A DNA stretch of 37,744 bases from Solirubrobacterales bacterium. GTDB taxonomy: Bacteria > Actinomycetota > Thermoleophilia > Solirubrobacterales > Solirubrobacteraceae. This document shows positions 1,517-35,077 of the stretch, piece by piece. The stretch is taken from positions 1-37,744 of the forward strand of contig JAOPZJ010000146.1 of the NCBI GenBank assembly GCA_025964155.1, written 5' to 3'. Made by a program: the position numbers and the translations under genes. The stretch's first letter is position 1. Every line of letters begins with the position of its first letter. The notes under the pieces are model-generated. The model worked only from the letters and a program-made list of their open reading frames with translations, had not been told where the DNA came from and searched no databases.

Positions 1517-3421
1517 GTGAACAGCGTCAGACATAGGATCGTGATCGCCGCGATCACGGCCGCAGCGCTCCTCCTGCCCGCTTCCGCGCCGGCCGCCGTG
1601 CCGTCCACCGCGGTCTCCGCGCCGGCGGACCAGTTCGCGCCGACGTATGACTGGCTCGACGGCAACGGCCCGCACGTGCTGCGGGTGAACGGCGTCGCTG
1701 GCGGCACCGGCAGCGGTGACAAGGTCGACATCTACTGCCTGCGTCGCGGGGAGGCGACGGCGCCGGTGATCGAGGACGTCCCCGTCGCCGCGACCGGCCG
1801 CGCCTTCAGCGCCGCGCTGGACGCCAGCCTCCCGGCCCTGCGGACCCCGTGCCGCCTGCGGGCGCTGCCGACCTCCGGCATCCCCGCGGACCTCGCGCCC
1901 TACCCCGGGCCGCGCTTCTTCCCCTCCGGGCTGCGCGACTTCCGCGAGCAGAATCTCGTCAATCCGAACGTCGGCGTGCTCTACGACGTCGACCTCAACA
2001 CCGTCACGCCCGCGAACACGAGCACCGCGCATCTGCAGACCTTCGGCGGTTGCGGGCTGTGGGATGCCCGCCCGCTGGACCCCGCCGTGGCGCCGGACGC
2101 GCCCGCGCGCAACGTCTTCGACTGCGCCGGCTGGGCCGACGACGTGGCGGACGCCCCGCCGACGCGCAGCGAGCTGCAGGTCGACGGGCGCAACGCGTTC
2201 ACCGGTGCGATGGCGACGCTCTCCACGTCAGCCCTGCCGGACGTGCCCGACCGCCCGGCGCTGACGCGCACGGCGTCCCGCGACGCCGTGACGGGACTCC
2301 TGTCCCTGCGCGAGAGCACCGAGGTCGTGCGCTGTGAGACGCAGCCGCCGGCCTACCCCCTCACCAGCGCCGGGGACTGCGGGCGCTTCGTCAGCGCCGG
2401 CGTGCGGTTCGTCCGCGAGGCCACGATGAGCCGCGACGGCCGCGTCACCACGATGCGCGACCGATGGGAGTCCTCCGACGGCGCCGAGCATGCGCTGGAC
2501 CTCCTGTTGGAGGTCGACCTCTCCTCCCAGCAGTACGGCATCCAAGTGCCGTGGGTCGGACCGGCCGTGTCGGCGTACGCGGGCACGGCGAGCATCAACG
2601 GCCCGCCCGCTGCGCCGGCGTCCATCCTCGTGCGCAGCAACCGCGACGTCCCGGACGGCGACCTGGCCAACCCGACGGGGGCGGTGACCTTCTCGACGGC
2701 ACCTTCGAGCATCGAGTTTGTCTCCGTCGAGAACCCGTCCCGGTACATGCAGCTGCGCTACCTGCGCCAGATCCCCGCCGGCGGTGCGCTGGAGCTGACG
2801 CACACGTTCTCGATGGCACCGACCGCCGCTGAGTCGGCCTCGCTGGCGGCCCTGGCCGAGGACTCCTACGGCGGCCCGTCCGTCGCGATCGCCGCGCCGG
2901 CGGCCGCCACGACGAGCACCGTGCCGAAGGTGACCGTTCGCGGGACCGCCTCCGACAACCGCGGGGTGGCGCGCCTCACCGTCGCCGGCCTCCCGGTCCC
3001 CGTCGCCGCTGACGGCACGTGGAGCGGGGAGGTGACGCTCACGCCGGGCCCGAACACGATCGTCGCCCACGCGACGGACGGTGCGGGCAACGCCAGTGAG
3101 GCGTCGGTCGCCGTGACGTACGCCCCCGTCACGGGCACACCGTGCGTCGTCCCGCGCATGAAGGGCCTGCGGCGGATCAGCAGCGCGAAGAAGCGTGTGA
3201 CGAAGGCCGGCTGTCGCTTCGGCCTGGTGTTCTACCGGTACGTCAAGCCGACGAAGATCCGCAAGGGCAAGAAGATCATCACCGTCGTGACGCGCCGCGG
3301 CACCGTGCTGGGGACCAAGCAGAAGATCGGCGCGAAGCTCCGGCCGGGGGCCAAGGTCGACGTGGTCGTGCAGGGACGCGTGCCGAAGAAGCCGACGCCC
3401 AAGCGGAAGGCGGCGGGGTAG
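1517..3421 (+). CDS. Secreted protein with Ig-like and PASTA-like C-terminal domains
   Basis: A 634-residue exported protein of unknown function. From GTG 1517 it begins with a basic n-region and hydrophobic core ending in an Ala-rich cleavage site (ASAPAA), a Sec-type signal peptide. Residues of about 30-450 form a large Cys-containing region I do not recognise. Residues of about 455-540 look like a bacterial Ig-like fold of the kind found in surface and carbohydrate-active proteins (VRGTASDNRGVARLTV, NTIVAHATDGAGN). Residues of about 543-620 resemble a PASTA domain (VPRMKGLRRISSAKKRVTKA), followed by a Lys/Pro-rich tail. PASTA-like tails often bind cell wall or mediate surface attachment. 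It is divergent from the hydrolase gene (46 bp apart) and convergent with ppa (10 bp apart). Confidence 0.8.
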   Translation: MNSVRHRIVIAAITAAALLLPASAPAAVPSTAVSAPADQFAPTYDWLDGNGPHVLRVNGVAGGTGSGDKVDIYCLRRGEATAPVIEDVPVAATGRAFSAALDASLPALRTPCRLRALPTSGIPADLAPYPGPRFFPSGLRDFREQNLVNPNVGVLYDVDLNTVTPANTSTAHLQTFGGCGLWDARPLDPAVAPDAPARNVFDCAGWADDVADAPPTRSELQVDGRNAFTGAMATLSTSALPDVPDRPALTRTASRDAVTGLLSLRESTEVVRCETQPPAYPLTSAGDCGRFVSAGVRFVREATMSRDGRVTTMRDRWESSDGAEHALDLLLEVDLSSQQYGIQVPWVGPAVSAYAGTASINGPPAAPASILVRSNRDVPDGDLANPTGAVTFSTAPSSIEFVSVENPSRYMQLRYLRQIPAGGALELTHTFSMAPTAAESASLAALAEDSYGGPSVAIAAPAAATTSTVPKVTVRGTASDNRGVARLTVAGLPVPVAADGTWSGEVTLTPGPNTIVAHATDGAGNASEASVAVTYAPVTGTPCVVPRMKGLRRISSAKKRVTKAGCRFGLVFYRYVKPTKIRKGKKIITVVTRRGTVLGTKQKIGAKLRPGAKVDVVVQGRVPKKPTPKRKAAG

Positions 3422-3431
3422 CGCGGCGGCG

Positions 3432-3932
3432 TTACCGGGCGGACTGCCTGGCGGCCCAGCGCTCGCGGGCCTCGGCGATGACCTCAAGGGCCTCGGCCTT
3501 GTCGTACCACCCGTCGACGATGACCTCCTTGCCCTCCGGCTGCTTGTAGATCGCGAAGAAGTGCGCGATCTCCCGGGTCAGCGAACTGGGCAGGTCCTCG
3601 AGCGAGTCGATGTGGTTCCAGTTCGGGTCTTCGAGCGGGACGCACAGGACCTTGTCGTCGACACCCTTGTCGTCGCTCATCTTGAAGAGCGCGATCACCT
3701 TCACCGGGATGACGCAGCCCGGGAACGTGGGCTCCGAAACGCAGACCATCGCGTCCAGCGGATCGCCGTCCTCCCCGTGGGTGTCCGGGATGAAGCCGTA
3801 GTCCGTCGGGTAGACGACGGAGCTGAAGAGGAAGCGATCGAGCTTGATCGCCTGCAGGTCCTCATCCCATTCGTACTTGTTGCGGCTGCCCTTCGGGATT
3901 TCGACCAGGCAGAGCGTGGGTTCGGCGGACAT
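3432..3932 (-). CDS. ppa: Inorganic pyrophosphatase, family I
   Basis: A 166-residue soluble Mg-dependent pyrophosphatase that hydrolyses PPi to two phosphates and so pulls biosynthetic reactions forward. Length and sequence fit the short hexameric prokaryotic class. Seen: the EIPKGSRNKYEWD start of the active site, YPTDYGFIP, and the signature DGDPLDAMV with metal-binding Asp55, Asp57 and Asp60. ATG 3932 is the family start. A longer in-frame extension to 4088 would overlap the transketolase gene and has no homology. A TAGCCT box lies 7 nt upstream, so transcription from this divergent region may be leaderless. Confidence 0.96.
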   Translation of the reverse strand: MSAEPTLCLVEIPKGSRNKYEWDEDLQAIKLDRFLFSSVVYPTDYGFIPDTHGEDGDPLDAMVCVSEPTFPGCVIPVKVIALFKMSDDKGVDDKVLCVPLEDPNWNHIDSLEDLPSSLTREIAHFFAIYKQPEGKEVIVDGWYDKAEALEVIAEARERWAARQSAR

Positions 3933-3939
3933 GGGGCGC

Positions 3940-3945
3940 AGGCTA
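3940..3945 (-). promoter_or_regulatory. Putative -10 box for ppa
   Basis: TAGCCT on the minus strand, 7 nt before the ppa ATG at 3932; leaderless arrangement as for the hydrolase gene at 1470. Confidence 0.4.
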
Positions 3946-4035
3946 CCCGAGCGCGGGCCTCCGATGCCCCCTGAAGCGTGAACACGGCGCGCGCCCGCGT
4001 GGTTGTAGCGGTCTTGGAGATAGGCTGCAAGGTCC

Positions 4036-6042
4036 ATGACCGAACCGATCGACCAGCTCTGCATCGACACGATCCGTGCCCTGAGCATGGATGCCGTTCA
4101 GGCGGCGAACTCCGGCCACCCGGGGTTGCCGCTTGGTATGGCTCCGGCGGCGTTCGTGTTGTATGCGGATGTGATGAAGCATGACCCGGCTGATCCGGAC
4201 TGGCCGGATCGCGATCGCTTTGTGCTGTCGGCGGGCCACGGGTCGATGCTGTTGTACTCCGCCCTGCACCTCGCGGGCTACGACCTGTCGCTGGACGATC
4301 TGAAGCACTTTCGCCAGTGGGACTCGCGGACCCCGGGGCATCCCGAGCGCGAGCGCTTGGCGGACGGGCGCTGGCGCACCCCGGGCGTGGAGGTCACGAC
4401 CGGCCCACTGGGCCAGGGGTTCGGCAACGGTGTGGGGATGGCAATCGCCGAGCAGCACCTGCGTCACACGTTCGGCGCGGAGGTCCAGGATCACCACATC
4501 TACGCGATCGTCTCTGACGGTGATCTGATGGAGGGCGTGGCCTCCGAGGCAGCGTCGCTGGCGGGCCAGCTTGGGCTCGGCAAGCTTGTCTATCTGTATG
4601 ACGACAACGACATTTCGCTGGACGGTCCGACGTCGTTGAGCTTTGACAGCGAGGACGTCTCCAAGCGCTTTGACGCCTACGGCTGGCAGGTGCTCGAGGT
4701 CGGCGACGCAAACGACGTGCACGCGCTGCGCGCCGCCGTGGCCGAGGGCAATTCGGAGACCGAGCGCCCGACGCTGATCCACGTCAAGTCGATCATCGGC
4801 TATCCCTCCCCGCACAAGCAGGGCACCTCCGCTGCGCACGGCGCACCGCTCGGCGAGGAGGAGGTCCGCCTGACAAAGGAGGCGATGGGCTGGGACCCGG
4901 ACAAGACGTTCTTCGTGCCCGACGGCGTGTATGAGCGCTTTCAGCGGCGCGGCCGCAAGGGCGCACGGGAGCGTTCGGCGTGGCAGCAGCGCCTGGACGC
5001 GCTGAAGCAGGACGCCGCCAAGGCCGAGCTGTGGGACTGCGCCTGGGCCGGCAAGCCGCTGCCCGGCGTCGGCGAGGCGCTGGCCCCGGGGGCGATCGAC
5101 TGGGGCAAGCCCGCCCTGGCCACGCGCGTCGCGGGCAAGCAGGCGATGGCGGCCTTTGATTCGTTCGTGCCGACGATGGTCGGTGGCGCGGCGGACCTGT
5201 CGGGTTCGACGAACACGATGTTTCCCGGCGGTGATGAGGAGCGCCTCACGCGCGATCACGTGGGCCGCAACGTGTACTTCGGGGTGCGTGAGCACGGGAT
5301 GGGCGCCGCGGTCAACGGCATGGCCGCGCACGGCGGCATCGTGCGCCCGTACGGCTCGACGTTCCTGCAGTTCGCCGACTACATGCGCGGCGCGATCCGC
5401 CTCAGCGCGCTGCAGGAGCTGAAGGTTGCGTGGGTGTTCACGCACGACTCCGTCGCGCTCGGCGAGGACGGCCCGACCCACCAGCCCGTCGAGCATCTCG
5501 CCGCGCTGCGCGCGATCCCCCATCTCACGGTGCTGCGCCCGGGCGACGCGATGGAGACCGCCGAGGCGTGGCGCGTGATCCTGGAGGACCTCGACGGCCC
5601 GGCTGCGCTCATCCTCAGCCGCCAGAACCTGCCGGTCATGACCGACGCGCCCGTCCGTGACGGCGTCGCCCGCGGCGCCTACGTCGTGCGCGCGACGGAG
5701 GAGGTGCCGCAGGCCGTGATCGTCGGCACCGGCTCCGAGGTCCACACCGCCCTGGAGGCGGCGGATCTGCTGGCGGCCGACGGCCTCAGGGTGCAGGTCG
5801 TCTCGATGCCCTCGTGGGAGCTCTTCGCCAAACAGGACCAAGCCTACCGCCAGTCCGTCCTGCCGGCCGGCGTGCCGAAGGTCTCCGTCGAGGCCGGCAT
5901 CGCGATGGGCTGGAGCCAATGGGTCGACGCCAGCGTCTCGATCGAGCGCTTCGGCGCATCCGCCCCCGGCGACGTCGTGCTCGAGCGCCTCGGCATCACC
6001 CCCGCCGCCACCGCGGCCAAAGTCAAGGAACTGGTGGGCTGA
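4036..6042 (+). CDS. tkt: Transketolase
   Basis: A 668-residue, full-length thiamine-diphosphate enzyme that moves two-carbon units between sugar phosphates in the non-oxidative pentose phosphate pathway. Domains in order: the N-terminal ThDP domain with active-site His28 and His68 (SAGHGS) and the cofactor segment SDGDLMEG...YDDND (160-192), the pyrimidine-binding domain with the signature [14 protein letters not shown], and a C-terminal domain with [12 protein letters not shown] 4036 follows a TAGGCT box by 9 nt with an AAGG in between. Codons in roughly 4120-4680 end in T unusually often (ctt, ggt, tat, gat, ttt) compared with the rest of the gene. Its end overlaps the convergent lytic transglycosylase gene by 20 bp. 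Confidence 0.97.
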
Positions 6043-7570
6043 GGACCGGGGCCGGCGCCGGCGCGCCGGCCGCCAGCAGGGGCAGGAGCTCGCGGGCCTG
6101 CGAGCTCACCGTCACGTGGATCGCGGCGGGCTCGCGCACCCATGCGATGAGGTTCAGGGCGGTGAGCCTGTCCAGCGCGAACTGGAAGGCCTTGGCCTGG
6201 GCCGAGCTGACGTACCGGCGGGCGATGTCGAACGTGTAGCCGGTCGTGTGCAGCGAGTACTTCTTCGTCGCCTGGATGTTCGAGGCGGTCAGCAGGTGCT
6301 GGTAGGGCCGGTCGCGGATCGTGCTCGTGACGATGAGCGGGGCGCTGCCGGAGATGCCCTGAGCCGCCGCGCCCAGGTACTGCAGGACGGCCAGCGCCTC
6401 CGGACGCAGGGCGCGATACAGGCGCTTGGACTGCTTCAGTCGCGGGGCGAGCTCGCCCATCGACGGCGAGATCTGGATGCCGTAGCGCGCGAGGCTCGTG
6501 CGGTCCAGGGCGATGAGCGTCCGTGCCGCCTCGGCCCGACCCAGTGCGAAGGGGTCGGCGTACTCCGGGACGCTGCCTTCGGGGTGCAGCACCTCCTCGG
6601 CGGAGTTCTTGTTCGTCTGCAGGTTTGCGACGACGGCCAGCGCCGCCGGGTCCGCGCGGTACTGACGCATGATCGACTCCGCGGCGCGCACCCGCCACAG
6701 GTACGTCGACGAGTCATCCCCCAGGCCGGCCAGGAACGCGTAGGCACGGCGGTGATCGACCGGTGACGTGCCGAAGAAGAGCTGGGCGTAGGGGATGTCC
6801 TTGGCGCCGTAGCGGCTCAGCGCCGTCTGCAGGTTGCCGATGCCCATGTGGTACCCGACGATCGCCAGTTCGGCGTCGCCGTGGAGGTCCCGACGCGCGA
6901 TGCCGAGGTACTTCACGGTCGCCGCCAGCGCCTTGTCGGGGTCAAAGCGCTCGTCGACCCGGCGGCGCTGGCGGACACGGGCGGCCACCTTGTGACCGCG
7001 CGCGATGCCGCGCGTCAGCCGCGTGGACGCCGCCACGTCGACCTTCATCCCCAGCAGGTTCGTTGCGGTCTCGGCGAGGATCTGCGTGAGGCCGGCGGCC
7101 CCGCTGAGGTCCCGGCCGGCTTGCGCGTCGGGCCGTCCGGCGCTCTCAAGGAACACGATGCCCTCGAGGACATTCGGGTCCACGTCGCCCGCCTTGGCCG
7201 CCCGCTCGACCTTCGGCCGCAGCGCCGCCACACGCTGGGCGGTCGCCACCGCACCCCCCGGCGACTTGGCGTACAACACGTGCGCGAGCCCGGCCGCGGC
7301 GCGGGCCTCGCGGTCCGCGCGCAGCGCCGGGGTGTAGCGCAGCGGGTCCATGCCCTGACCGGATGTCGCCCCGGGGAGCAAGGCCGAGGGGTTCCGACCG
7401 CCGTCCGCGTTGCCGCCGCCGGACTGGCGCAGCAGCACGGCGGCCAGGCCGCCGCCCGTCACGATGGCCAGGACGAGCAGGGCGCCGGCCCGCACCCGGC
7501 GACGTCGCTGGTCGTTGCGGCGGGCCGCCGACGGACGTGGGGAACGCGGCGGGCGGGACGAGATGGCCAT
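6023..7570 (-). CDS. Membrane-anchored lytic transglycosylase with M15/DUF5715-like C-terminal domain
   Basis: A 515-residue cell-wall protein. A basic N-terminus is followed by one membrane segment (about 26-47) and a linker. An SLT-type lysozyme-like domain spans about 115-300, with catalytic Glu142 in FLESAG, AGLTQI (159-164) and GYHMGIGN (239-246). Residues of about 390-490 carry S439-x-H441...D448 and H485 in the pattern [12 protein letters not shown]...IHVTV. This resembles the zinc site of M15/VanY-like peptidases and the DUF5715 family. If both parts are active, one protein could cut glycan strands and peptide stems; the second activity is inferred from the pattern alone. The partner process (division, sporulation or secretion) is unknown. 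Upstream lies the divergent GNAT gene. Confidence 0.85.
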
Positions 7571-7623
7571 CTCCCCAACCGTGCCACACCTTCCTGAAGA
7601 CTCGTCGTGCGACCCTACGCGGC

Positions 7624-8034
7624 GTGGCTCATCTGTCTACCGACCCCTCGCGCCTGGACGTCGACCTCATTCACGCCTTCCTCAGCGAACGCGCCTACTG
7701 GGCGATCGGGCGCACCCGCGAGGTCACCGAGCGCGCGATCGCGAACTCGCTGTGCTTCGGCGCGTACGCCGACGACGGCGCCCAGGTGGCGTTCGCGCGA
7801 GTGGTCACCGACAGGGCGGTCTTCGCCTATCTCGCCGATGTCTTCGTCGTGGAGGCGGTCCGGGGCCGCGGCGTCGGCAAGGCGCTGGTGGCGGCGATCC
7901 TCGCGCACGAGGACGTCCGTGGCCTGCGGCGCGTCGTCCTGGTGACCGACGACGCCCACGAGCTGTACGCGCGGTTCGGGTTCACGGCGCTGGCCGAGGC
8001 GGAGAACTGGATGAACATCCGCCGGTCGACCTGA
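7624..8034 (+). CDS. GNAT-family N-acetyltransferase
   Basis: A 136-residue single-domain acetyltransferase expected to move an acetyl group from acetyl-CoA to an amine. It has the acetyl-CoA pyrophosphate-binding motif A (VRGRGVGKALVAAI) preceded by YLADVFVV, and a C-terminal YARFGFTAL that matches the usual Y-x-x-x-GF end. The N-terminal LSERAYWAIGRTREV is typical of a small bacterial GNAT subgroup. GTG 7624 was picked because the conserved region begins about 10 residues later. No clear ribosome binding site is visible, so the start is uncertain. The substrate is unknown. Confidence 0.88.
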   Translation: MAHLSTDPSRLDVDLIHAFLSERAYWAIGRTREVTERAIANSLCFGAYADDGAQVAFARVVTDRAVFAYLADVFVVEAVRGRGVGKALVAAILAHEDVRGLRRVVLVTDDAHELYARFGFTALAEAENWMNIRRST

Positions 8035-8613
8035 GCGTGCGCATTGGCCAACGTGCGGGGCGTCTGTGGTGCTCGCGCGAGGGTGCGAGGCGCGTGTGGC
8101 GTTGACGCGAGCGAACCCCGCGGCGTGTGATGCGCTTGAACGGCGGGCACTGACGGCGGAGGGTGCCGGCGCGACGGTGCGGGGGTGGCGGACCGTTGTG
8201 GCTGGCGCGTTGCCGCTCGCGACCGCGGTGAGTGGAGCCCAGGCCGTCACGGAGGCGCTCCATGCTCGACTCACGCCGAAAGTGGCGCGTTGGCGCTCTT
8301 CCAGGCGGCGCCCACCGCGTTTGCCGATCGAGCGTCACGTTCCCGCTGCCAGGTGGCGGATCTGTGACGCTCGATCGATCGGGCGGCCGTCGCTTGGTGA
8401 CATCCGAGGTCACACCACGGGCTTCGCACTCCCCCGTCAGTGCGGCCGTTAGAGACGCCCCGCACCACGCCAAGCTCAATCGCGCCAGCGTCACAAGCGC
8501 CCAGTGTCCAGACCTAGGCGCAGGCTCCAGGCTCCGATGCCGGCGCACGATTGACGTGGCTCCGGTGCCCGCACCGTGATCACGACCGCTCGGGAACTGC
8601 CACCCTTCTCCGC
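8035..8613 (+). repeat. 579-bp intergenic region full of inverted and direct repeats
   Basis: No convincing gene is present; the open frames here have no recognisable domains or ribosome binding sites. Three repeat systems are seen. (1) A 13-bp inverted pair, GTGCGGGGCGTCT at 8053-8065 and its complement at 8453-8465, continued by a related pair around 8138-8155 and 8433-8450. (2) A stem formed by 8096-8110 with 8480-8494, also found compactly at 35129-35178. (3) A 14-bp perfect inverted repeat at 8325-8338/8364-8377 whose right half recurs near 12.5 kb. It resembles a nested non-coding mobile or REP-like element. Confidence 0.6.
8325..8377 (+). repeat. Dispersed palindromic element, copy 1
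   Basis: Arms CGATCGAGCGTCAC (8325-8338) and GTGACGCTCGATCG (8364-8377) are exact complements, separated by 25 nt. Positions 8343-8377 match 12475-12509 at 34 of 35 bases, so this is a repeated unit and not a chance palindrome. Confidence 0.7.
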
Positions 8614-9180
8614 ATGCCCGCCGTCTGGCTCATCCGTCACGTCCCGGCCGCTGGCAACATCGGCGGCACGTTCATGGGGCAGCTGGACGGCGAGCCGGAC
8701 GCGAACAGCCTCGTGCAGGCGGCGGCGCTGGCCGGCACGGTCGATGCCGACGCGGTGCTGGCCAGCCCGCTGCGGCGTGCCGCGCTGACCGCGGCCGCGA
8801 TCTTCCCCGGCCGCGCGATCATCCATGACGTGCGGCTGGCCGAGCGTCACCTGGGCCGCTGGCAGGGTCGGACCAAGACGCAGGTGCGTGAGGAGCAGCC
8901 CGGGGCGTTCACGACGGCCGGGACGCTGGATCTGCGCGTCACGCCGCCGGGCGGTGAGCCCTTCGACGCGCTCTGCGCGCGCGTGCACGCAGTGCTCGTC
9001 GAGCTCGCGCGGCAGCCGGCGGACGAGCGCATCGCCGTCGTGGCCCACAACGGCGTCCTGCGCACCGCGCGCGTCCTGCTGGGCCTCATGGCGGTCGAGG
9101 AGGCGTCCGTCACACCCGAGCGCTTCGCCGAGCCCGCGCTCGTGCAGGTGGACGCCGCGACCTTGCGGGCGGCCCGCTAG
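8614..9180 (+). CDS. Histidine phosphatase family protein
   Basis: A 188-residue protein of the phosphoglycerate-mutase-like histidine phosphatase superfamily. Arg8-His9 (LIRHVPAAGN) provides the phospho-accepting histidine. Other core elements are the DAVLASPLRRAALTA helix, the acidic LAERHLGRWQG and the second histidine in VAHNGVLRT. The usual RHG is RHV here, which also occurs in other members. Substrates in this superfamily range from sugar phosphates to nucleotide and vitamin intermediates and cannot be told from sequence. ATG 8614 begins at the conserved first strand; the frame upstream lies in the repeat region. The stop overlaps the convergent oxidoreductase gene by 4 bp. Confidence 0.88.
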   Translation: MPAVWLIRHVPAAGNIGGTFMGQLDGEPDANSLVQAAALAGTVDADAVLASPLRRAALTAAAIFPGRAIIHDVRLAERHLGRWQGRTKTQVREEQPGAFTTAGTLDLRVTPPGGEPFDALCARVHAVLVELARQPADERIAVVAHNGVLRTARVLLGLMAVEEASVTPERFAEPALVQVDAATLRAAR

Positions 9181-12551: not shown

Positions 12552-13625
12552 TCAGGCGACCGCGGTCTGCGGGAGCGATGCGGCCTGATACCCGACGACG
12601 CGGTTGCGGCCCTGTGTCTTGGCTGCGTAGAGCGCGTCGTCGGCGCGCTGCAGCAGCACCTGAGGGGAGGTCCCGTGTTGCGGGAAGCTCGCGACGCCGA
12701 AGGAGACCGTCAGCGGCACCGGGTCCTGCGCCAGCGCCTGCTCCACGACCTCGCGCAAGCGCCCGGCGGCCACCAGCGCGGCCGCCATATCGGTGTCGGG
12801 CAGGATCACGGCGAACTCCTCCCCGCCGTGGCGGGCGATCGTGTCGCCGGCTCGGCGGTGCTGGTCGATGAGCTTGGCGAACCGCCGCAGGGCCTCGTCG
12901 CCCGCGGCGTGGCCCTGGGCGTCATTGACGCTCTTGAAGCGGTCCAGGTCGCCGATGAGCACGGACAGCGGGCGTCCGGTGTGCAGGGCTCGGTGCAGCT
13001 CGCTGGCGAAGACCTCGTCAAAGCCCCGGCGGTTCAGCAGTCCGGTCAGCGCATCGGTACGCGCGTCGTCGGTCAGACGCTCGATGCGGCCGTCGAGGCG
13101 GGTCTTGAGACTGCCGACGAAGAGCCCTGCACCGAGCATCGCGGCGATCGTGGTGATCCAGTGCGTGACGGCGGAAAACGGCGGTGGACCAAGGGCGATG
13201 ACGAACGCGTATTCCGCAGCGACGACCACCAGCTGCAGCAATGCCTCTCGCCGGCTGAAGACGTAGAAGGCGTACAGGATGCCCCAGAGGTAGAACAGGG
13301 ACGCGGCGTTCGGAACGCCGCCGGTGAAGTGGATCTCGGCGGTGGCCAGGGCGCCCCCGAGGCCGACCAGCGAGCTGATCGCGCGTGGGGGCACACGAGG
13401 CCCGTAGGCCAACAGGATCGCGGTGATCCCTGCACACGCGGCGGAAATCGCTAACACCTGTGGCACCTCGACCGACGAGTCGTGCGGTGCAAGGACCTCG
13501 AACAGGGTGAGGACCGTGGCGGCGAGAAACAGCCACATCAGGCCCACGGCCGGCGATGCGCGACGCTCGGGCGAGAGCGAGTGCCTCAGGCGGGTCCAAA
13601 CCGGATGAAAGAAGGTCAGGGGCAT
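12552..13625 (-). CDS. Membrane diguanylate cyclase (GGDEF)
   Basis: A 357-residue protein expected to make cyclic di-GMP from two GTP. About six hydrophobic segments between residues 27 and 172 form an N-terminal membrane sensor of unknown ligand. A short helix (KTRLDGRIERLTDDA) links it to the GGDEF domain at about 188-345. The active-site motif is GGEEF (267-271), DLDRFKSVND supplies the metal site, and an RAGD (258-261) placed five residues before GGEEF is an intact I-site for product inhibition. No EAL domain is present. ATG 13625 lacks a clear ribosome binding site. It is not co-transcribed with an obvious partner. Confidence 0.92.
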   Translation of the reverse strand: MPLTFFHPVWTRLRHSLSPERRASPAVGLMWLFLAATVLTLFEVLAPHDSSVEVPQVLAISAACAGITAILLAYGPRVPPRAISSLVGLGGALATAEIHFTGGVPNAASLFYLWGILYAFYVFSRREALLQLVVVAAEYAFVIALGPPPFSAVTHWITTIAAMLGAGLFVGSLKTRLDGRIERLTDDARTDALTGLLNRRGFDEVFASELHRALHTGRPLSVLIGDLDRFKSVNDAQGHAAGDEALRRFAKLIDQHRRAGDTIARHGGEEFAVILPDTDMAAALVAAGRLREVVEQALAQDPVPLTVSFGVASFPQHGTSPQVLLQRADDALYAAKTQGRNRVVGYQAASLPQTAVA

Positions 13626-23202: not shown

Positions 23203-23278
23203 GCCGGTGAAGGGGGGCGCCGGCATCTTAGGCTGATCTAAAGAAGGTCAGAAATCTGCCGATATCGAGACGTGCACG

Positions 23279-26200
23279 ATGCTCGTCTCCGGCGCCAGCC
23301 CTACCACGCAGGCGCCGGATCACCCGAGGACCATCGGGTGGCAGGGCGCGACGGCGCTCGCGATGGGCGGCTCCAACCAGAGCCTGTTCCTCATCGCGGC
23401 GCTCGTGCTCGCGCAGGGCACCGCGGCCGTCCCGCTCCTCATCATCGGCCTGCTCGTCAGCTGGGCCGCCCTGCCGGGCTGGATCGAGCTCGTCCTCATG
23501 TGGCCCAAGCGCGTGGGCGGCATCTCCGCGACGTGCGCCGAGGCCTTCCGGCCCTACAGCCCGGTCCTGGCGAACCTCGCGGGCGTCGCCTACTGGTGGG
23601 GGTGGATCCCGACGTGCGGGCTGACGGCCATCCTGTCGGCCAGCGCGCTGAACCACTGGTACCTCCCCGGGGTGCCCGTCCAGGCACTGGCCACCGGCAT
23701 CATCGCCGTGTTCCTGCTCGTCAACCTGTGCGGCGTGCGGTGGGTCGCGCGCCTGGCGTTGCCGCTCGCATGCGCGTCGGCGCTGCTGGCGTTCGCGTCG
23801 GCGCTCATCCCGGTGTTCGCCGGTGAGGTCGATTGGCACCAGGCGGCGTCGTTTCACCTCCAGACGCCCTTCGACGGTGCCTTCGGCGCGCTGACGAGCG
23901 CGATGGCCGGCCTCTACCTCATCGGCTTCGCGGCCCCGGCGTTCGAGGCGGCCGCCTGCCACGTCGGCGAGATGCGCGACCCGGTCCGCTCGCTCCCCCG
24001 CGCGATGTACGCCAGCGCGTCGATGGCGTCGCTCTACTTCCTCGCCCTGCCGGTCGTCTGGCTCGGTGTGCTCGGACCCAGCGGACTCGAAGGCGAGCTG
24101 ATGAGGACGCTCGGCCCGACGTTCGCGCCGATGCTCGGCGCGGGCGCCAAGGCGGCGGCCATCTGGTTCATGGTCTTCAACATGTTCCACGGGACGCTGC
24201 AGCCGCTGGCCGGGGCGGCCCGCACGATGTCCCAGCTCTCGGACGACGGCCTCGTGCCGCGCATCCTCGGGCGGCGCAACCGCTTCGACGTGCCGTGGGT
24301 CGCCACGACGCTCACGGCCTGCTGCGCGATCGTGTTCCTCCTGTCGGGGTACCCGCTGTGGTTCCTCGCCGCCGCGAATTTCTGCTACCTCATCGGGATC
24401 ATCCTCCCGAGCGTGGCGGTCTGGCTGCTGCGCCGCGACGCCCCCGACATGGAGCGTCCCTATCGCGCGCCGCGGGGGACGATCGTGCTGGGCGTCGGGG
24501 CGGCCGGAGTCTGGGGCGTGTCGACGATCTTCGGCTTCCAGCAGTTCGGGCTGCCGACGGTCATCTCGGGCCTCGTCCTCGCCTACTCCGGGTCGCTGCT
24601 CTACGCCTATCGCACCTGGACGGATCGCCGGCGGGCGGGTGAGCGCGGCGTCCCGCGGTCACTGCACCTCAAGCTCACCGGTGCCATGGTGGCCGTCATG
24701 GCGCTCGACGGCGCTGGCTACCTGCTCGCCGTGAGCCATGTGCCCGCGGGCCAGTCCGAGCTCATGTCGGTTTTGGCGGACATCTTCGTGGCCGTGGCGA
24801 TCCTCACGATCACCGTCGGCCTCGTGCTCCCGGGCATGATCTCGCACGCGACGAGCGAGGTCGCGGGCGCTGCTGACCGCCTGGCCCGGGGTCCGCTCAC
24901 CGACTTCACGCTGGCGATGGAGGCCTTCAGCGAGGGGCGGCTGGACGCGGCGCATGCGAGCATCGCGATCGCGCCGGTCCACGTGCGCTCCCGCGACGAG
25001 GTCGGGGCGATGGCCCAGAGCTTCAACCTCATGCAGGAGGAGGTGGCGCGCGCCGCCCGCGCGCTGGACCTCGCGCGTGAGGGGCTACGGGCGACCGAAG
25101 ATCAGCTCGAGCGCACCATCGCCCAGCAGGCCGCGATCGCGCGCCTCGGCCAGCAGGCGCTCGAGGATGGCGACATCGACGGGCTCATGGACCATCTGGT
25201 CACCACCGTGGCGTCGGTGCTCAAGGCGGACGTCGTGGCGGTGCTCGAGCACGTCGTCGACGACGGCATGCGGGTGCGGGCCTCCACCGGCATGGCCTGG
25301 CGCCGTCGTCTCGTGCCGGTCGTCGAGGTCGGCGCGTGCGGCGACGCCGAGAGCACGGAGGGCGTGCCGGCGCTGCCGGAGCTGCTGGACGACACCCGTG
25401 CGCTGGGGGGCGTCGTCGTGCCGGTCCCCACTCGCGGCACGTCGTTCGGTGTCCTGTGCTGCGAGACGCTGGATCCCCGCGTCTTCTCGGGCGAGGAGAC
25501 CGACTTCCTGCGCGCGGTCGTCAACGTGCTGGCGGACGTCATCGACCGACGGCGGGCGGAGGAGGGCATCCGCCACCAGGCGCTGCATGACGCGCTCACC
25601 GGTCTGCCCAACCGCGCGCTGTTCCTGGACCGCCTGCGCCTGTCGCTGGCCCATGGTGCGCGCCGCGAGTCCGGCGTGGCTGTCGTGTTCCTCGACATCG
25701 ACCACTTCAAGCTCGTCAACGACTCCCTCGGCCACGGGGTCGGGGACGAGCTGCTCTGCCTGTTCGCCGCGCGGCTGGACGAGCAGATGCGTGCGGGCGA
25801 TACGGTGGCCCGCTTCGGCGGCGACGAGTTCGTGATGATCTGCGACGACCTGCCCGACGCCGAGGAGGCGCGCCGGATCGCCGACCGCGTCGCGGAGGCG
25901 CTGCGGGCGCCGTTCTCCCTCAGCGGGTACGGCGACCTCGTCGTGCGCGCGAGCATCGGCGTGGCGACGTCCCGAATCGGCTCCGACCGTGCCGATGCCG
26001 ACGATCTCGTCCGCGAGGCCGACGCCGCGATGTACCGCGCGAAGGACCGCGGCCGCGGCCGCGTGGAGGAGTTCGACGAGCGCATGCGCGAGAGCGCGAC
26101 GTCGCGCCTGCAGGTCGAGGCGGACCTCGCCCGCGCCGTGACCGACGACGAGCTGCGGCTCGTCTACCAGCCGATCGTGGTGCTGGACAGCGGTCAGGTC

Positions 26201-26899
26201 TGCGGGGTCGAGGCGCTCGTGCGGTGGCAGCATCCGCGTCGTGGCCTCCTGGCCCCGGCCGAGTTCATCCCGATCGCGGAGGAGACCGGCATGATCGTGC
26301 CGATCGGCGAATGGGTCCTGCGGGAGGCGTGCCGCCAGGCGGCGGCGTGGGCCCGCACCCGACCTGCGGCGGGCGCGCTGACGATGGCGGTCAACCTCTC
26401 CCCGCGGCAGGTCGCCGAGGCCGACCTGCCCGCGGTCGTCGCGCGCGTGCTGCACGAGACGGGTCTGGACCCCGTGAGCCTGCACCTGGAGATCACCGAG
26501 ACCGTGCTCATGGAGCAGGCCGAGGCGAGCGTCGAAGCGCTCAAGGCGCTGGGCGTGTCCCTCGTCCTGGACGACTTCGGCACCGGCTACTCGTCGCTGG
26601 CGTATGTGCAGCGGTTCCCGATCGACGTGCTGAAGATCGACCGCTCGTTCGTCGCCGACCTGCAGCCGCAGAGCGACGACGAGACGATCGTCGCCGCGAT
26701 CGTGAACATGGCGCGTAGCCTGCGCGTGGACGTCGTCGCCGAGGGCATCGAGACGGCGGAGCAGGCGATGACGCTGTCCGCTCTGGGCTGCCGGCTCGGG
26801 CAAGGGTTCTACTACGCCCGGCCGCTGCCGGCCTCCGCGGTCAGCCGGCTGCTGGACGGCGCGTTGCCGGTCGCCCCGGTCGCCGAGAGCTTCGTGTAG
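23279..26899 (+). CDS. APC-type permease fused to HAMP-GAF-GGDEF-EAL
   Basis: A 1206-residue membrane protein joining a transporter fold to cyclic di-GMP enzymes. Residues of about 18-446 are an APC-superfamily amino acid permease with about 12 helices (GWQGATALAMGGSNQSLFLI, EMRDPVRSLPRAM, GAARTMSQLSDDGLVPRIL, RPYRAPRG). Two more helices (about 464-520) lead to a HAMP-like linker (521-595) and a helical region. A GAF-like domain follows (about 615-755). The GGDEF domain has intact GGDEF (847-851) and an I-site RAGD (838-841). The EAL domain keeps E978 (EAL), N1039, E1071, D1098-D1099, K1119, E1155 and Q1175, so synthesis and breakdown of c-di-GMP are both possible. It probably senses or transports an amino-acid-like ligand and converts this to c-di-GMP levels. 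The start ATG is not firmly supported by a ribosome binding site. Confidence 0.93.
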   Translation: MLVSGASPTTQAPDHPRTIGWQGATALAMGGSNQSLFLIAALVLAQGTAAVPLLIIGLLVSWAALPGWIELVLMWPKRVGGISATCAEAFRPYSPVLANLAGVAYWWGWIPTCGLTAILSASALNHWYLPGVPVQALATGIIAVFLLVNLCGVRWVARLALPLACASALLAFASALIPVFAGEVDWHQAASFHLQTPFDGAFGALTSAMAGLYLIGFAAPAFEAAACHVGEMRDPVRSLPRAMYASASMASLYFLALPVVWLGVLGPSGLEGELMRTLGPTFAPMLGAGAKAAAIWFMVFNMFHGTLQPLAGAARTMSQLSDDGLVPRILGRRNRFDVPWVATTLTACCAIVFLLSGYPLWFLAAANFCYLIGIILPSVAVWLLRRDAPDMERPYRAPRGTIVLGVGAAGVWGVSTIFGFQQFGLPTVISGLVLAYSGSLLYAYRTWTDRRRAGERGVPRSLHLKLTGAMVAVMALDGAGYLLAVSHVPAGQSELMSVLADIFVAVAILTITVGLVLPGMISHATSEVAGAADRLARGPLTDFTLAMEAFSEGRLDAAHASIAIAPVHVRSRDEVGAMAQSFNLMQEEVARAARALDLAREGLRATEDQLERTIAQQAAIARLGQQALEDGDIDGLMDHLVTTVASVLKADVVAVLEHVVDDGMRVRASTGMAWRRRLVPVVEVGACGDAESTEGVPALPELLDDTRALGGVVVPVPTRGTSFGVLCCETLDPRVFSGEETDFLRAVVNVLADVIDRRRAEEGIRHQALHDALTGLPNRALFLDRLRLSLAHGARRESGVAVVFLDIDHFKLVNDSLGHGVGDELLCLFAARLDEQMRAGDTVARFGGDEFVMICDDLPDAEEARRIADRVAEALRAPFSLSGYGDLVVRASIGVATSRIGSDRADADDLVREADAAMYRAKDRGRGRVEEFDERMRESATSRLQVEADLARAVTDDELRLVYQPIVVLDSGQVCGVEALVRWQHPRRGLLAPAEFIPIAEETGMIVPIGEWVLREACRQAAAWARTRPAAGALTMAVNLSPRQVAEADLPAVVARVLHETGLDPVSLHLEITETVLMEQAEASVEALKALGVSLVLDDFGTGYSSLAYVQRFPIDVLKIDRSFVADLQPQSDDETIVAAIVNMARSLRVDVVAEGIETAEQAMTLSALGCRLGQGFYYARPLPASAVSRLLDGALPVAPVAESFV

Positions 26900-30961: not shown

Positions 30962-31282
30962 TCACAGCGCGCCGGCCAGACCGGCGACGATCCAGGCGAA
31001 AGCCCCCACCCCGAGGAGGCGACGGAACCAGTTGACCCCGTCGATGACCTCCTCCCAGGCCCATACGCCGAGGCCGACGATGAAGACCGCGCGGCCGACG
31101 TCGTGTGCGGAGCCACCAGCGACGGCGGCGAGCCCCCACCCCGCGAACGCGAGCAGCAGCGGCGGGTTCGGGAACTGTGCGATGGGGAAGCGGCGCGGCC
31201 AGCCCGACCGGCCGAGCCGCCAAAGCTCGGCGATGCTCGCCGCGCGACTACAGCGACGAGGAGGGTCGCGTCGTTGGTGCAT
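30962..31282 (-). CDS. Small membrane protein of unknown function
   Basis: A 106-residue protein with a basic N-terminus and about three hydrophobic segments: PPLLLAFAGWGLAAVAGG, AVFIVGLGVWAWEEVIDG and LLGVGAFAWIVAGLAGAL. The stretch RSGWPRRFPIAQFPNPPLL before the first helix and GVNWFRRLLG before the last look conserved-like, and Arg residues there suggest orientation signals. I do not know a function. The start is uncertain: ATG 31282 is the only in-frame ATG, with a GGAG about 12 nt upstream. The gene points away from the ABC transporter operon. Confidence 0.6.
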   Translation of the reverse strand: MHQRRDPPRRCSRAASIAELWRLGRSGWPRRFPIAQFPNPPLLLAFAGWGLAAVAGGSAHDVGRAVFIVGLGVWAWEEVIDGVNWFRRLLGVGAFAWIVAGLAGAL

Positions 31283-31401
31283 TTCGTGCTTTGTCTCCGT
31301 ATCTCAAATTGGTCACGGCAGGCCCGACCTGCGACCTGAGAGGGATAGGCGGTGCGACCTCATGCCCAGTCGCCGCCCTGAATGTCCATCCTTGCGGCTC
31401 A

Positions 31402-31430
31402 TTGTGGGCTGGGCGATCGATCCGCATGAT
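31402..31430 (+). promoter_or_regulatory. Promoter of the ABC transporter operon
   Basis: TTGTGG (31402-31407) and CATGAT (31425-31430) with a 17-nt spacer; the -10 box ends 6 nt before ATG 31437, so a leaderless mRNA is likely. Confidence 0.45.
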
Positions 31431-31436
31431 CAGGGC

Positions 31437-32384
31437 ATGATCGAAATCGAGCACATCAGCAAGCGCTACGGAGAGAAGCTCGCCGTCGACGACATCAGCT
31501 TCGTCGTGAAGCCCGGGACGGTCACGGGCTTCCTCGGCCCCAATGGGGCGGGCAAGTCGACGACGATGCGCATGATCGTCGGCCTGGACGCGCCGAGCGC
31601 CGGAACGATCCGCGTCAACGGCGGCGCGTACCGCGACTTCCGGGCGCCGCTGCACGAGGTCGGCGCGATGCTCGAGGCACGGGCGATCCACACCGGGCGC
31701 TCGGCATACAACCACCTGCTGGCGATGGCGCAGACGCACGGCATCGGACGGGCGCGGGTGGAGGAGGTCATCGAGCTCGTGGGACTGAGCAGCGTCGCCC
31801 GCAAGCGCGCCGGCGGCTTCTCGCTGGGGATGGGACAGCGCCTCGGCATCGCCTCGGCGCTGCTGGGAGATCCTCAGACGGTGATCCTGGACGAGCCGGC
31901 CAACGGCCTGGACCCTGAGGGCATCCTGTGGATCCGGACGCTGCTCAAGCAGCTCGCCTCCGAGGGCAGGACGGTCTTCTTGTCGTCGCACCTGATGAGC
32001 GAGATGGCGCAGACCGCCGAGCATCTGGTGATCGTCGGGCGTGGACGCGTGATCGCTGACACGACGGTCGAGGAGGTGGTGTCCCGGGCCTCGGTCGGCG
32101 CGACGGTGCACGTGAGAAGTCCTCACGTCCCGGCGCTGCGCGATGCGCTGGCCGGCGACGGCGTCCGGATCCAGAGCCGCGAACGCGAGACGCTCGAGGT
32201 TCACGGACTCTCAGCCGAGCGCATCGGCGAGCTCGCGGCGCAGCGACAGTTGACCCTGTACGAGCTGACGCCGCAGCGTGCCTCACTGGAGGACGCGTAC
32301 ATGCGGTTGACCGGCGACGCGGTGGAGTACCGGACGACCACCGTCCCCGTGGTGACCGACGAGATCCTGGAGCAGGCAGCATGA
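31437..32384 (+). CDS. ABC transporter ATP-binding protein
   Basis: A 315-residue ATPase of the drug/lantibiotic-exporter type (DrrA/BcrA-like). Walker A is GPNGAGKST, the signature is FSLGMGQRLG, Walker B is VILDEPANGLD, and the switch His is in SSHLMSE. The C-terminal 90 residues form the extra domain common in two-gene exporters. It powers the partner permease encoded directly downstream; the two overlap by 4 nt (ATGA). The transported compound is unknown. A NarL-type kinase/regulator pair follows, the arrangement often seen for exporters induced by antibiotics or envelope stress. Confidence 0.95.
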   Translation: MIEIEHISKRYGEKLAVDDISFVVKPGTVTGFLGPNGAGKSTTMRMIVGLDAPSAGTIRVNGGAYRDFRAPLHEVGAMLEARAIHTGRSAYNHLLAMAQTHGIGRARVEEVIELVGLSSVARKRAGGFSLGMGQRLGIASALLGDPQTVILDEPANGLDPEGILWIRTLLKQLASEGRTVFLSSHLMSEMAQTAEHLVIVGRGRVIADTTVEEVVSRASVGATVHVRSPHVPALRDALAGDGVRIQSRERETLEVHGLSAERIGELAAQRQLTLYELTPQRASLEDAYMRLTGDAVEYRTTTVPVVTDEILEQAA

Positions 32385-33233: not shown

Positions 33234-34415
33234 GTGCCTCACGCGATGAGCAACGCGCTCGAGGGCGTGGCGTCGCTTCACCGCCGCCGGCCGGTGGTGG
33301 GAGACGCTGCGCTCGTCGCGCTACTGCTCGTACTCGGGTTGGCCTCGCACGCCGGGGACCTCCAGACCACCACGGCCGGCCGGGCCTTCACGGTCGCGCT
33401 GGTGCTGCCCCTGCTGTGGCGCCGGCGCTGGCCGGTCGGCGTCTTCGCGGTGATCGCGTTGATCGCCTTCGCGCAGTGGCTGGCGGACGCTCTGGCGTTC
33501 GGTGACGCTGCGCTGCTGGTGGCCCTCTACGGCGTCGCGGTCTCCCAGCCCCGCCGCGTCGCGCTGGCCGCCGCCGCAGTCGTCGCGTTCGGCGTCGTGC
33601 TGGCCAACCTGCGCTGGGCCCCCGGGAACGGGCTGCGGGGCTTCGTCGGGTTGTCCGGCCTGGCGACCGCCGCCTACGTGCTCGGGACGAACACCCGCAC
33701 CCGTCGGGCGCTGGTCGCTTCATTGCAGGAGCGCGCCGAGCGATTGGAGCGCGAGCGCGACCAGCAGGGCCAGCTGGCGGCGGCGGCCGAACGGGCGCGG
33801 ATCGCGCGCGAGCTGCACGACGTCGTCGCCCACAACGTCTCGGTCATGATCGCGCTGTCCGATGGCGCCGGCTACGCCCTCGACGAGGACCCGGCGCGTG
33901 CCAAGTCCGCGATGCGGAACGCCTCGCGGACCGGGCGCCAGGCGCTCGCGGAGCTGCGCCGGTTGCTCGGCGTGCTTCGCGACGGCGACGGCGATGCCCA
34001 GCTCGCCCCGCAACCGGGTCTGGCGCAGCTCGATGAGCTGCTCCAGGACGTTCGCAGCGCCGGCCTGCCGGTGAGCTATGAGGTGACGGGCCGTCCCTCC
34101 ACACCGCTGCCGCCGGGCCTCGAACTCGCCGTCTTCCGCATCGTGCAGGAGGCGCTGACCAACACGCTCAAGCACGCCGGCCCCGGGGCAGAAGCCCAGG
34201 TGCGGATGCTCCACGGCCACGGCGTGCTCGAGGTCGAGGTGCTCGACACGGGCAATCCGCTTCCCGACTTGCGGGTCGACGGCTCCGCAGGCCTGCGCGG
34301 GATGCGCGAGCGAGCGGCCGTCTACGACGGCGAGCTGGACGCCGGCCCCGCGCCGGACGGCGGCTGGCGGGTCCACCTCGTCCTGCCGCTCGAATCAGCG
34401 ACGCTGTCGGCGTGA
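33234..34415 (+). CDS. Sensor histidine kinase, NarL-partner (HisKA_3) type
   Basis: A 393-residue membrane kinase. Four to five hydrophobic segments (about residues 22-155) with short loops suggest sensing in or at the membrane. The dimerisation domain follows, with phospho-accepting His195 in ARELHDVVAHNVSVM, then an HATPase_c domain (about 285-390) with EALTNTLKHAG (N box) and GSAGLRGMRERAAVYDG (G box). The start could be GTG 33234 (promoter box 7 nt upstream) or ATG 33246 (AGGTG 8-9 nt upstream). The stop overlaps the response-regulator GTG by 4 nt. It lies 16 bp after the ABC permease, so it probably controls that exporter. Confidence 0.94.
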   Translation: MPHAMSNALEGVASLHRRRPVVGDAALVALLLVLGLASHAGDLQTTTAGRAFTVALVLPLLWRRRWPVGVFAVIALIAFAQWLADALAFGDAALLVALYGVAVSQPRRVALAAAAVVAFGVVLANLRWAPGNGLRGFVGLSGLATAAYVLGTNTRTRRALVASLQERAERLERERDQQGQLAAAAERARIARELHDVVAHNVSVMIALSDGAGYALDEDPARAKSAMRNASRTGRQALAELRRLLGVLRDGDGDAQLAPQPGLAQLDELLQDVRSAGLPVSYEVTGRPSTPLPPGLELAVFRIVQEALTNTLKHAGPGAEAQVRMLHGHGVLEVEVLDTGNPLPDLRVDGSAGLRGMRERAAVYDGELDAGPAPDGGWRVHLVLPLESATLSA

Positions 34416-35077
34416 CCACCCGAATCCTGCTCGTCGACGACCAAGAGCTCCTGCGGATGGGGTTTCGCATGGTGCTCGAGGCACAGGATGGCCTGGAAGT
34501 CGTCGGCGAGGCCGGCGACGGCGCCGAAGCGGTGGCGCTGACCCGGCAGCTTGAGCCTGACGTCGTCCTCATGGACGTCCGGATGCCGCGCATGGACGGC
34601 GTTCAGGCCACTCGTGCGCTCGTGGACGGTGGCAGCCGCTCGCGGGTCATCATCCTCACCACGTTCGACCTGGACGAGTACGCGCACGCAGCGCTGCGCG
34701 CCGGCGCCAGCGGCTTCCTGCTCAAGGATGCGCCGACCGCCGATCTCCTGTCGGCGATCCGCGCCGTCGCCAGCGGCGACGCCGTCGTCGCACCGAGTAC
34801 CACACGGCGCCTGCTGGCGACGATCGTCCACCAGCTGCCCGTCGCCGAGACGGACGTCGACCATCCGCGGCTGAGCTCGCTCACGCCCCGCGAGCGCGAG
34901 GTGCTGATGGCCGTCGCGCGCGGCCTCTCCAACGCGGAGATCGCCGACGAGCTCGTGCTGTCCGAGGCCACCGTCAAGACGCACGTCGGCCGCATCCTGG
35001 CCAAGCTTGCGCTGCGCGACCGCGTGCAGATCGTCATCTACGCCTACGACCACGGCCTCGTCGCCCCGGGGAACTGA
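34412..35077 (+). CDS. Response regulator, NarL/LuxR type
   Basis: A 221-residue two-component regulator. The receiver has acidic Asp9-Asp10, phospho-acceptor Asp55 (VVLMDVRMPRMDG) and Lys105 (GFLLKDAP). The C-terminal LuxR-type helix-turn-helix (about 155-215) has LTPREREVLMAVARGLSNAEIA and SEATVKTHVGRILAKLALRDR. GTG 34412 overlaps the kinase stop (GTGA), so the two are translated together. It likely activates or represses the ABC genes just upstream, but no operator repeat is recognised before 31437. Confidence 0.96.
   Translation: MTTRILLVDDQELLRMGFRMVLEAQDGLEVVGEAGDGAEAVALTRQLEPDVVLMDVRMPRMDGVQATRALVDGGSRSRVIILTTFDLDEYAHAALRAGASGFLLKDAPTADLLSAIRAVASGDAVVAPSTTRRLLATIVHQLPVAETDVDHPRLSSLTPREREVLMAVARGLSNAEIADELVLSEATVKTHVGRILAKLALRDRVQIVIYAYDHGLVAPGN

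Follow-up and report, generated by a model that had tools for sequence, protein, structure and literature searches.

What is a permease fold doing on the same polypeptide as the enzymes of cyclic di-GMP (c-di-GMP) signaling? The question is raised by a gene on contig JAOPZJ010000146.1 of a Solirubrobacterales bacterium (assembly GCA_025964155.1), of which we analyzed a stretch of 37,744 nucleotides, called here the window. The gene (23279..26899, + strand) encodes 1206 residues, in which an APC-type permease is followed by HAMP, GAF, GGDEF, and EAL domains. We argue that the protein is probably a one-component receptor of APC type, similar to a transceptor, which would feed a solute signal into c-di-GMP, and would do so within a regulon of the FliA/WhiG sigma class.

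A reading of the letters alone (the sequence-only reading) had described one frame joining an APC permease, two helices, HAMP, GAF, GGDEF, and EAL, and both translation and Pfam agree with it. Translated, 23279-26899 is a single stop-free frame, and its GC content by codon position (0.73/0.49/0.94) has the pattern of a real gene. All five Pfam matches exceed their gathering scores: AA_permease_2 at residues 19-406 (2.8e-32), HAMP at 538-589 (30.7 bits, cut-off 25), GAF at 632-752, GGDEF at 768-927 (1.1e-42), and EAL at 948-1182 (4.8e-74), so that every domain named by that reading is found. The match within residues 18-446, on which its APC assignment hung, reaches 112.6 bits for a cut-off of 27.

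Going along the plus strand, the permease domain (aa 18-446, 23330..24616) also matches GkApcT and SLC7 chains in a profile search of PDB, and its motifs are conserved. Its first helix contains GGSN (aa 30-33); GFAAPAFEAAACHVGE (aa 216-231) falls at the helix that aligns with transmembrane helix 6 (TM6) of GkApcT. Next come two extra transmembrane helices (TM13-14, about aa 462-530, 24662..24868), placed by alignment and hydropathy N-terminal to HAMP and centered near residues 476 and 511; D477, G480, Y481, and DIFV (501-504) are invariant in the alignment. The hydropathy of the whole N-terminal module is compatible with about 12 helices plus these 2. The HAMP relay domain (aa 531-592, 24869..25054) is followed by the GAF domain (aa 629-760, 25163..25558), and then by the GGDEF diguanylate cyclase (aa 766-928, 25574..26062) and the EAL phosphodiesterase (aa 945-1186, 26111..26836). 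The catalytic motifs of both enzymes and the RxxD I-site are all present, as the sequence-only reading had stated, and they are conserved in relatives: RAGD and GGDEF begin at residue 838, and the EAL domain keeps EALVRW, NLS, EITE, DDFGTGYSSL, KID, AEG, and QG. Both enzymes are predicted to be active.

Could the fusion be an artifact? The window genome (G000) is a 4.7-Mb assembly in 451 contigs, 89% complete, and a frameshift or assembly error joining two genes was the obvious objection. It is ruled out by full-length orthologs in other genomes, most directly because G002, of the same genus and assembled as a single contig of 5.1 Mb, has the entire protein, with 62% identity. Others are found in G129, G080, and G121, and G005, a Solirubrobacterales metagenome-assembled genome (MAG; also locus L020), has the two halves of the protein at the ends of two contigs.

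One argument for a receptor comes from what else the membrane part is attached to. The first 630 residues served as query against four overlapping sets of genomes: the order (232), the class (399), the phylum (396), and a sister order (129). The APC-2TM-HAMP module is found in ten genomes of Thermoleophilia, the window genome included and several of them MAGs, and in no carrier beyond Thermoleophilia in the wider sample of the phylum. In six carriers (the window, G002, G129, G080, G121, and the split G005) the output is GGDEF-EAL, and in one (G289, locus L021) it is GGDEF-HD-GYP. In the other three, G384 (L022), G315 (L023, in a broken frame), and G138 (L039), it is HisKA-HATPase-REC. A plasmid search added an eleventh copy, on megaplasmid NZ_CP155075.1 of Paraburkholderia sp. 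PREW-6R (locus L115), which reads APC-2TM-HAMP-HisKA-HATPase-REC-Hpt. The scan of contigs outside Actinomycetota relied on six exact 8-residue patterns with thin taxonomic coverage, and it would have missed this Paraburkholderia copy.

Across these copies the module is one unit and the output is not. Identity in the APC domain is 67.2% inside the GGDEF-EAL set and 66.8% between that set and the proteins with other outputs; TM13-14 and HAMP behave in the same way, and HAMP is present in every copy. Identity collapses at the borders of GAF (28%, and absent from the relatives with other outputs) and of the outputs, which are unrelated. A complete TM13-14 pair was never found without an adjoining APC domain of the module type, nor did we find any stand-alone member of the module, the sole lone relative in the order search being L030, at about 31-33% identity. 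What would be expected of a transceptor, a transporter fold covalently joined to a signaling output and conserved whatever the output, is what is observed. The APC core is 59-67% identical between the Paraburkholderia and Thermoleophilia copies, as high as within the class, which suggests that the module has spread between phyla by horizontal transfer. Two loci have peculiarities of their own. The APC-kinase gene of G315 (L023, about 6000-9055) lies in two frames inside the APC domain, either a MAG frameshift or real decay. And in G121 (L038, frame 3222-7355, minus strand) the APC-GGDEF-EAL gene is immediately preceded, in the same frame, by the last part of an HD-GYP-like coding sequence, which may be left over from a former partner gene.

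These different outputs seem to converge on c-di-GMP. The GGDEF-EAL and GGDEF-HD-GYP versions would act on it directly. For the kinase versions, we infer the pairing from adjacency: in G138 a divergent REC-HD-GYP gene lies 85 bp away (L039:3855-4943), and in Paraburkholderia an overlapping REC-EAL gene follows downstream, with a GAF-kinase-receiver gene upstream. In the latter locus (L115:2037-12717), the overlapping GAF-histidine kinase-REC, APC-HAMP-histidine kinase-REC-Hpt, and REC-EAL genes are all unannotated, and two chemoreceptor genes adjoin them. These two c-di-GMP response regulators next to kinase versions aside, the carriers share no conserved gene neighborhood.

A second line of evidence lies upstream of the gene. 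At 23239..23265 (+), ending 13 nt before the ATG, is a FliA/WhiG-class (sigma-28) promoter motif, TAAA-N15-GCCGATAT, which would place the receptor under that sigma class. The consensus (-35 TAAA, -10 GCCGATAA) was taken from the work on Rubrobacter WhiG by Schumacher et al. (PMC8325347), who report 12 mapped promoters, 5 of them before diguanylate cyclase or phosphodiesterase genes, and state that Thermoleophilia have WhiG and a single-motif RsiG. No other site in the window scores 10/12 or better; at 11/12, 0.017 matches are expected per window. The exact pattern TAAA-N14-16-GCCGATA occurs twice in the 4.7-Mb window genome, and 0 times as a reversed control. The window genome also encodes a FliA/WhiG-type sigma factor (TIGR02479, best E 2.3e-81).

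We also scanned 562 kb of strands, pooled from the family loci and from the surroundings of sigma-factor and flagellar genes. Five sites score 11/12 or better against the strict consensus, and each of them lies upstream of a family gene, its operon, or a divergent partner: the family gene itself in the window, G005, and G384, the operon in Paraburkholderia, and the divergent partner in G138. The match of G002 scores 10/12. By the time we fixed the threshold and pooled the loci for testing, we had already seen the motif in the window, G002, and G005. The Paraburkholderia locus came to light only afterward and so checks the association independently; it has TACA-N15-GCCGATAA at 6120 in L115, before the first gene of the set. 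Shuffling within 200 bp gives 0/1000 for each of the window, G002, G005, G384, and G315; upstream of the family gene of G138 itself the match is not significant. Exact TAAA-N14-16-GCCGATA sites also stand at L045 and L046 (G121 and G138), before genes that by eye resemble HDOD signaling proteins.

Which solute is read? The residues invariant in the family concentrate at GGSN (30-33) and at GFAAPA-EAA-CH (216-228), two regions that we take to align with the helices by which APC transporters bind their substrates, and because of this clustering the APC domain likely binds a solute. The best named subfamily model is the trimethylamine N-oxide (TMAO) permease NF053774, at 125 bits, far under its cut-off of 690, and the lone permease L030 has the YWxGWxP and EAAACxxGE motifs in common with the family; neither of the two has signaling domains. 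Guessing the ligand from paralogs was dropped, the other APC permeases of the carriers being distant. Of the sequence-only reading, then, the architecture, the c-di-GMP output, and the CbrA-like logic hold up, all three strengthened by a module that, in ten other genomes or records, is fused to exchangeable signaling outputs of three types. Its "amino-acid-like compound" does not, finding no support beyond the APC fold. That reading had also not noted how the module travels across outputs and phyla, nor the FliA/WhiG-type site in front of the gene.

Is the APC domain, in addition, a working transporter, with an output that responds to substrate occupancy or flux, the arrangement suggested for CbrA? 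In its favor, the motifs of helices 1 and 6 do not vary between phyla, one third of the APC positions are the same in ten copies, and no other domain is conserved better. Then again, every copy found is bound to signaling, and a lysine that proton-coupled APC transporters such as GkApcT and MjApcT have in TM5, in the Na2-site position, is missing: all nine members aligned have Ser or Ala where GkApcT has K191. This loss was considered as the mark of a transport-dead sensor and dropped; in the alignment L030 has no TM5 lysine either, and so the loss does not separate sensor from transporter. We regard true transport coupling as possible, somewhat short of an even chance. It is unlikely that information runs the other way, with the c-di-GMP domains controlling the transporter and signaling governing uptake. 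c-di-GMP can act allosterically, and the GGDEF domain does have an I-site, but in other copies the place of the output is taken by histidine kinases that carry receiver and Hpt domains and have response regulators next to them, which is sensible only if the signal leaves the membrane part, and HAMP is a standard outward relay. As for an APC domain that is a mere membrane anchor, or the product of an accidental gene fusion, the patchy distribution (10 among several hundred Thermoleophilia genomes searched) is what such an accident could leave. But the APC domain holds 59-67% identity across both phyla and all three output types, its core is no less conserved than the enzymatic domains, and the single-contig genome of G002 has an intact full-length ortholog; together these make such a reading very improbable.

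There are also observations that weigh against the receptor as we propose it, its place in a FliA/WhiG regulon included. By the same shuffling, the promoter of G080 is marginal (0.042), and G129, G121, and G289 have no good FliA/WhiG site, their matches not being significant. FlhA, found in G000, G002, G005, G138, and G289, is absent in 5 of the 10 actinobacterial carriers (G080, G121, G129, G315, and G384). A strict flagellar link is ruled out, since G384 and G315 have the promoter site yet no FlhA; the pattern indicates that the link is to the FliA/WhiG sigma class and not strictly to flagella. The short flanks of the kinase versions in G384 and G315 contain no c-di-GMP response regulator. 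The branching of the module tree does not resolve, so that the output swaps cannot be ordered, and we abandoned ordering them by tree. Finally, an AlphaFold model of the N-terminal module, made from a four-sequence alignment, has a low confidence (pLDDT 38), and the APC fold, expected to be a 5+5 inverted repeat of 12 helices, and the 14-helix topology are predicted from profile matches and hydropathy.

The receptor that we favor would work as follows. Solute binding or a transport cycle would change the conformational state of the permease domain. That state would shift TM13-14, which are predicted to run on into HAMP and a coiled linker; as the helix number is even, HAMP should be cytoplasmic, on the topology deduced here. 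HAMP would then alter the balance of GGDEF versus EAL activity, with a local shift in c-di-GMP. Transcribed from a FliA/WhiG-class promoter, the receptor would be expressed alongside genes for motility or pili, and feedback of c-di-GMP on the FliA/WhiG-type sigma factor might run through RsiG, if RsiG is present. No RsiG motif appears in the eight regions scanned, several of them around FliA/WhiG matches, a search short of the whole genome.

How different is this from known systems? The APC fold is related to LeuT. In the SLC5-STAC proteins CbrA (PMC7096432, PMC13022988) and CrbS, a LeuT-fold transporter domain is likewise fused to intracellular signaling enzymes, and the outputs reported for SLC5-STAC proteins are kinases or GGDEF domains (PMC5715377). 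The window protein differs in that its transporter is APC, with no SLC5/SSF match in the Pfam scan, and in that it couples through TM13-14 and HAMP and adds GAF and EAL. That scan gave no STAC match either, from a library not checked for a STAC model; the linker holds HAMP. The ammonium sensor kinase KsAmt5 also uses a transporter fold as receptor, and is an earlier example of a transporter fold that binds but does not transport efficiently, but its fold and ligand are unrelated and its output is a histidine kinase (PMC8534201, PMC10433425). The Rubrobacter genes under WhiG likewise lie behind TAAA...GCCGATAA promoters, and the part of that study used here describes no transporter-like receptor (PMC8325347). 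Transporter-sensor fusions are known (SLC5-STAC, Amt); in the literature searched, with limited coverage of subscription papers, we found no APC version with extra helices and HAMP, nor any APC-GGDEF or APC-kinase receptor.

Other signaling genes surround this one. A second GGDEF protein is encoded about 10 kb upstream (12555-13625, minus strand), and the GGDEF-EAL part of the fusion protein matches at 19 places in the window genome. Further along the window, a HisKA_3 kinase and a LuxR-type response regulator (33234-35074) follow an ABC transporter ATPase gene (31032-32381).

More tentatively, at a little under even chances, we propose that the APC-type transceptors form a new family. Its portable APC-TM13/14-HAMP module would have moved between phyla while staying within FliA/WhiG regulons, and would turn uptake or binding of one conserved solute into a change of c-di-GMP, a taxis-like decision that would bypass the chemotaxis kinase and might feed back on its own sigma factor. 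Paraburkholderia sp. PREW-6R, with its complete plasmid sequence, offers a host in which ligand, transport, and signaling could be separated. Bacteria have few known receptors of transporter-like build, SLC5-STAC and Amt among them. If the proposal is true, a very common amino-acid transporter fold would have been recruited as a receptor, and an input would be at hand for c-di-GMP networks, few of whose signals have been identified.
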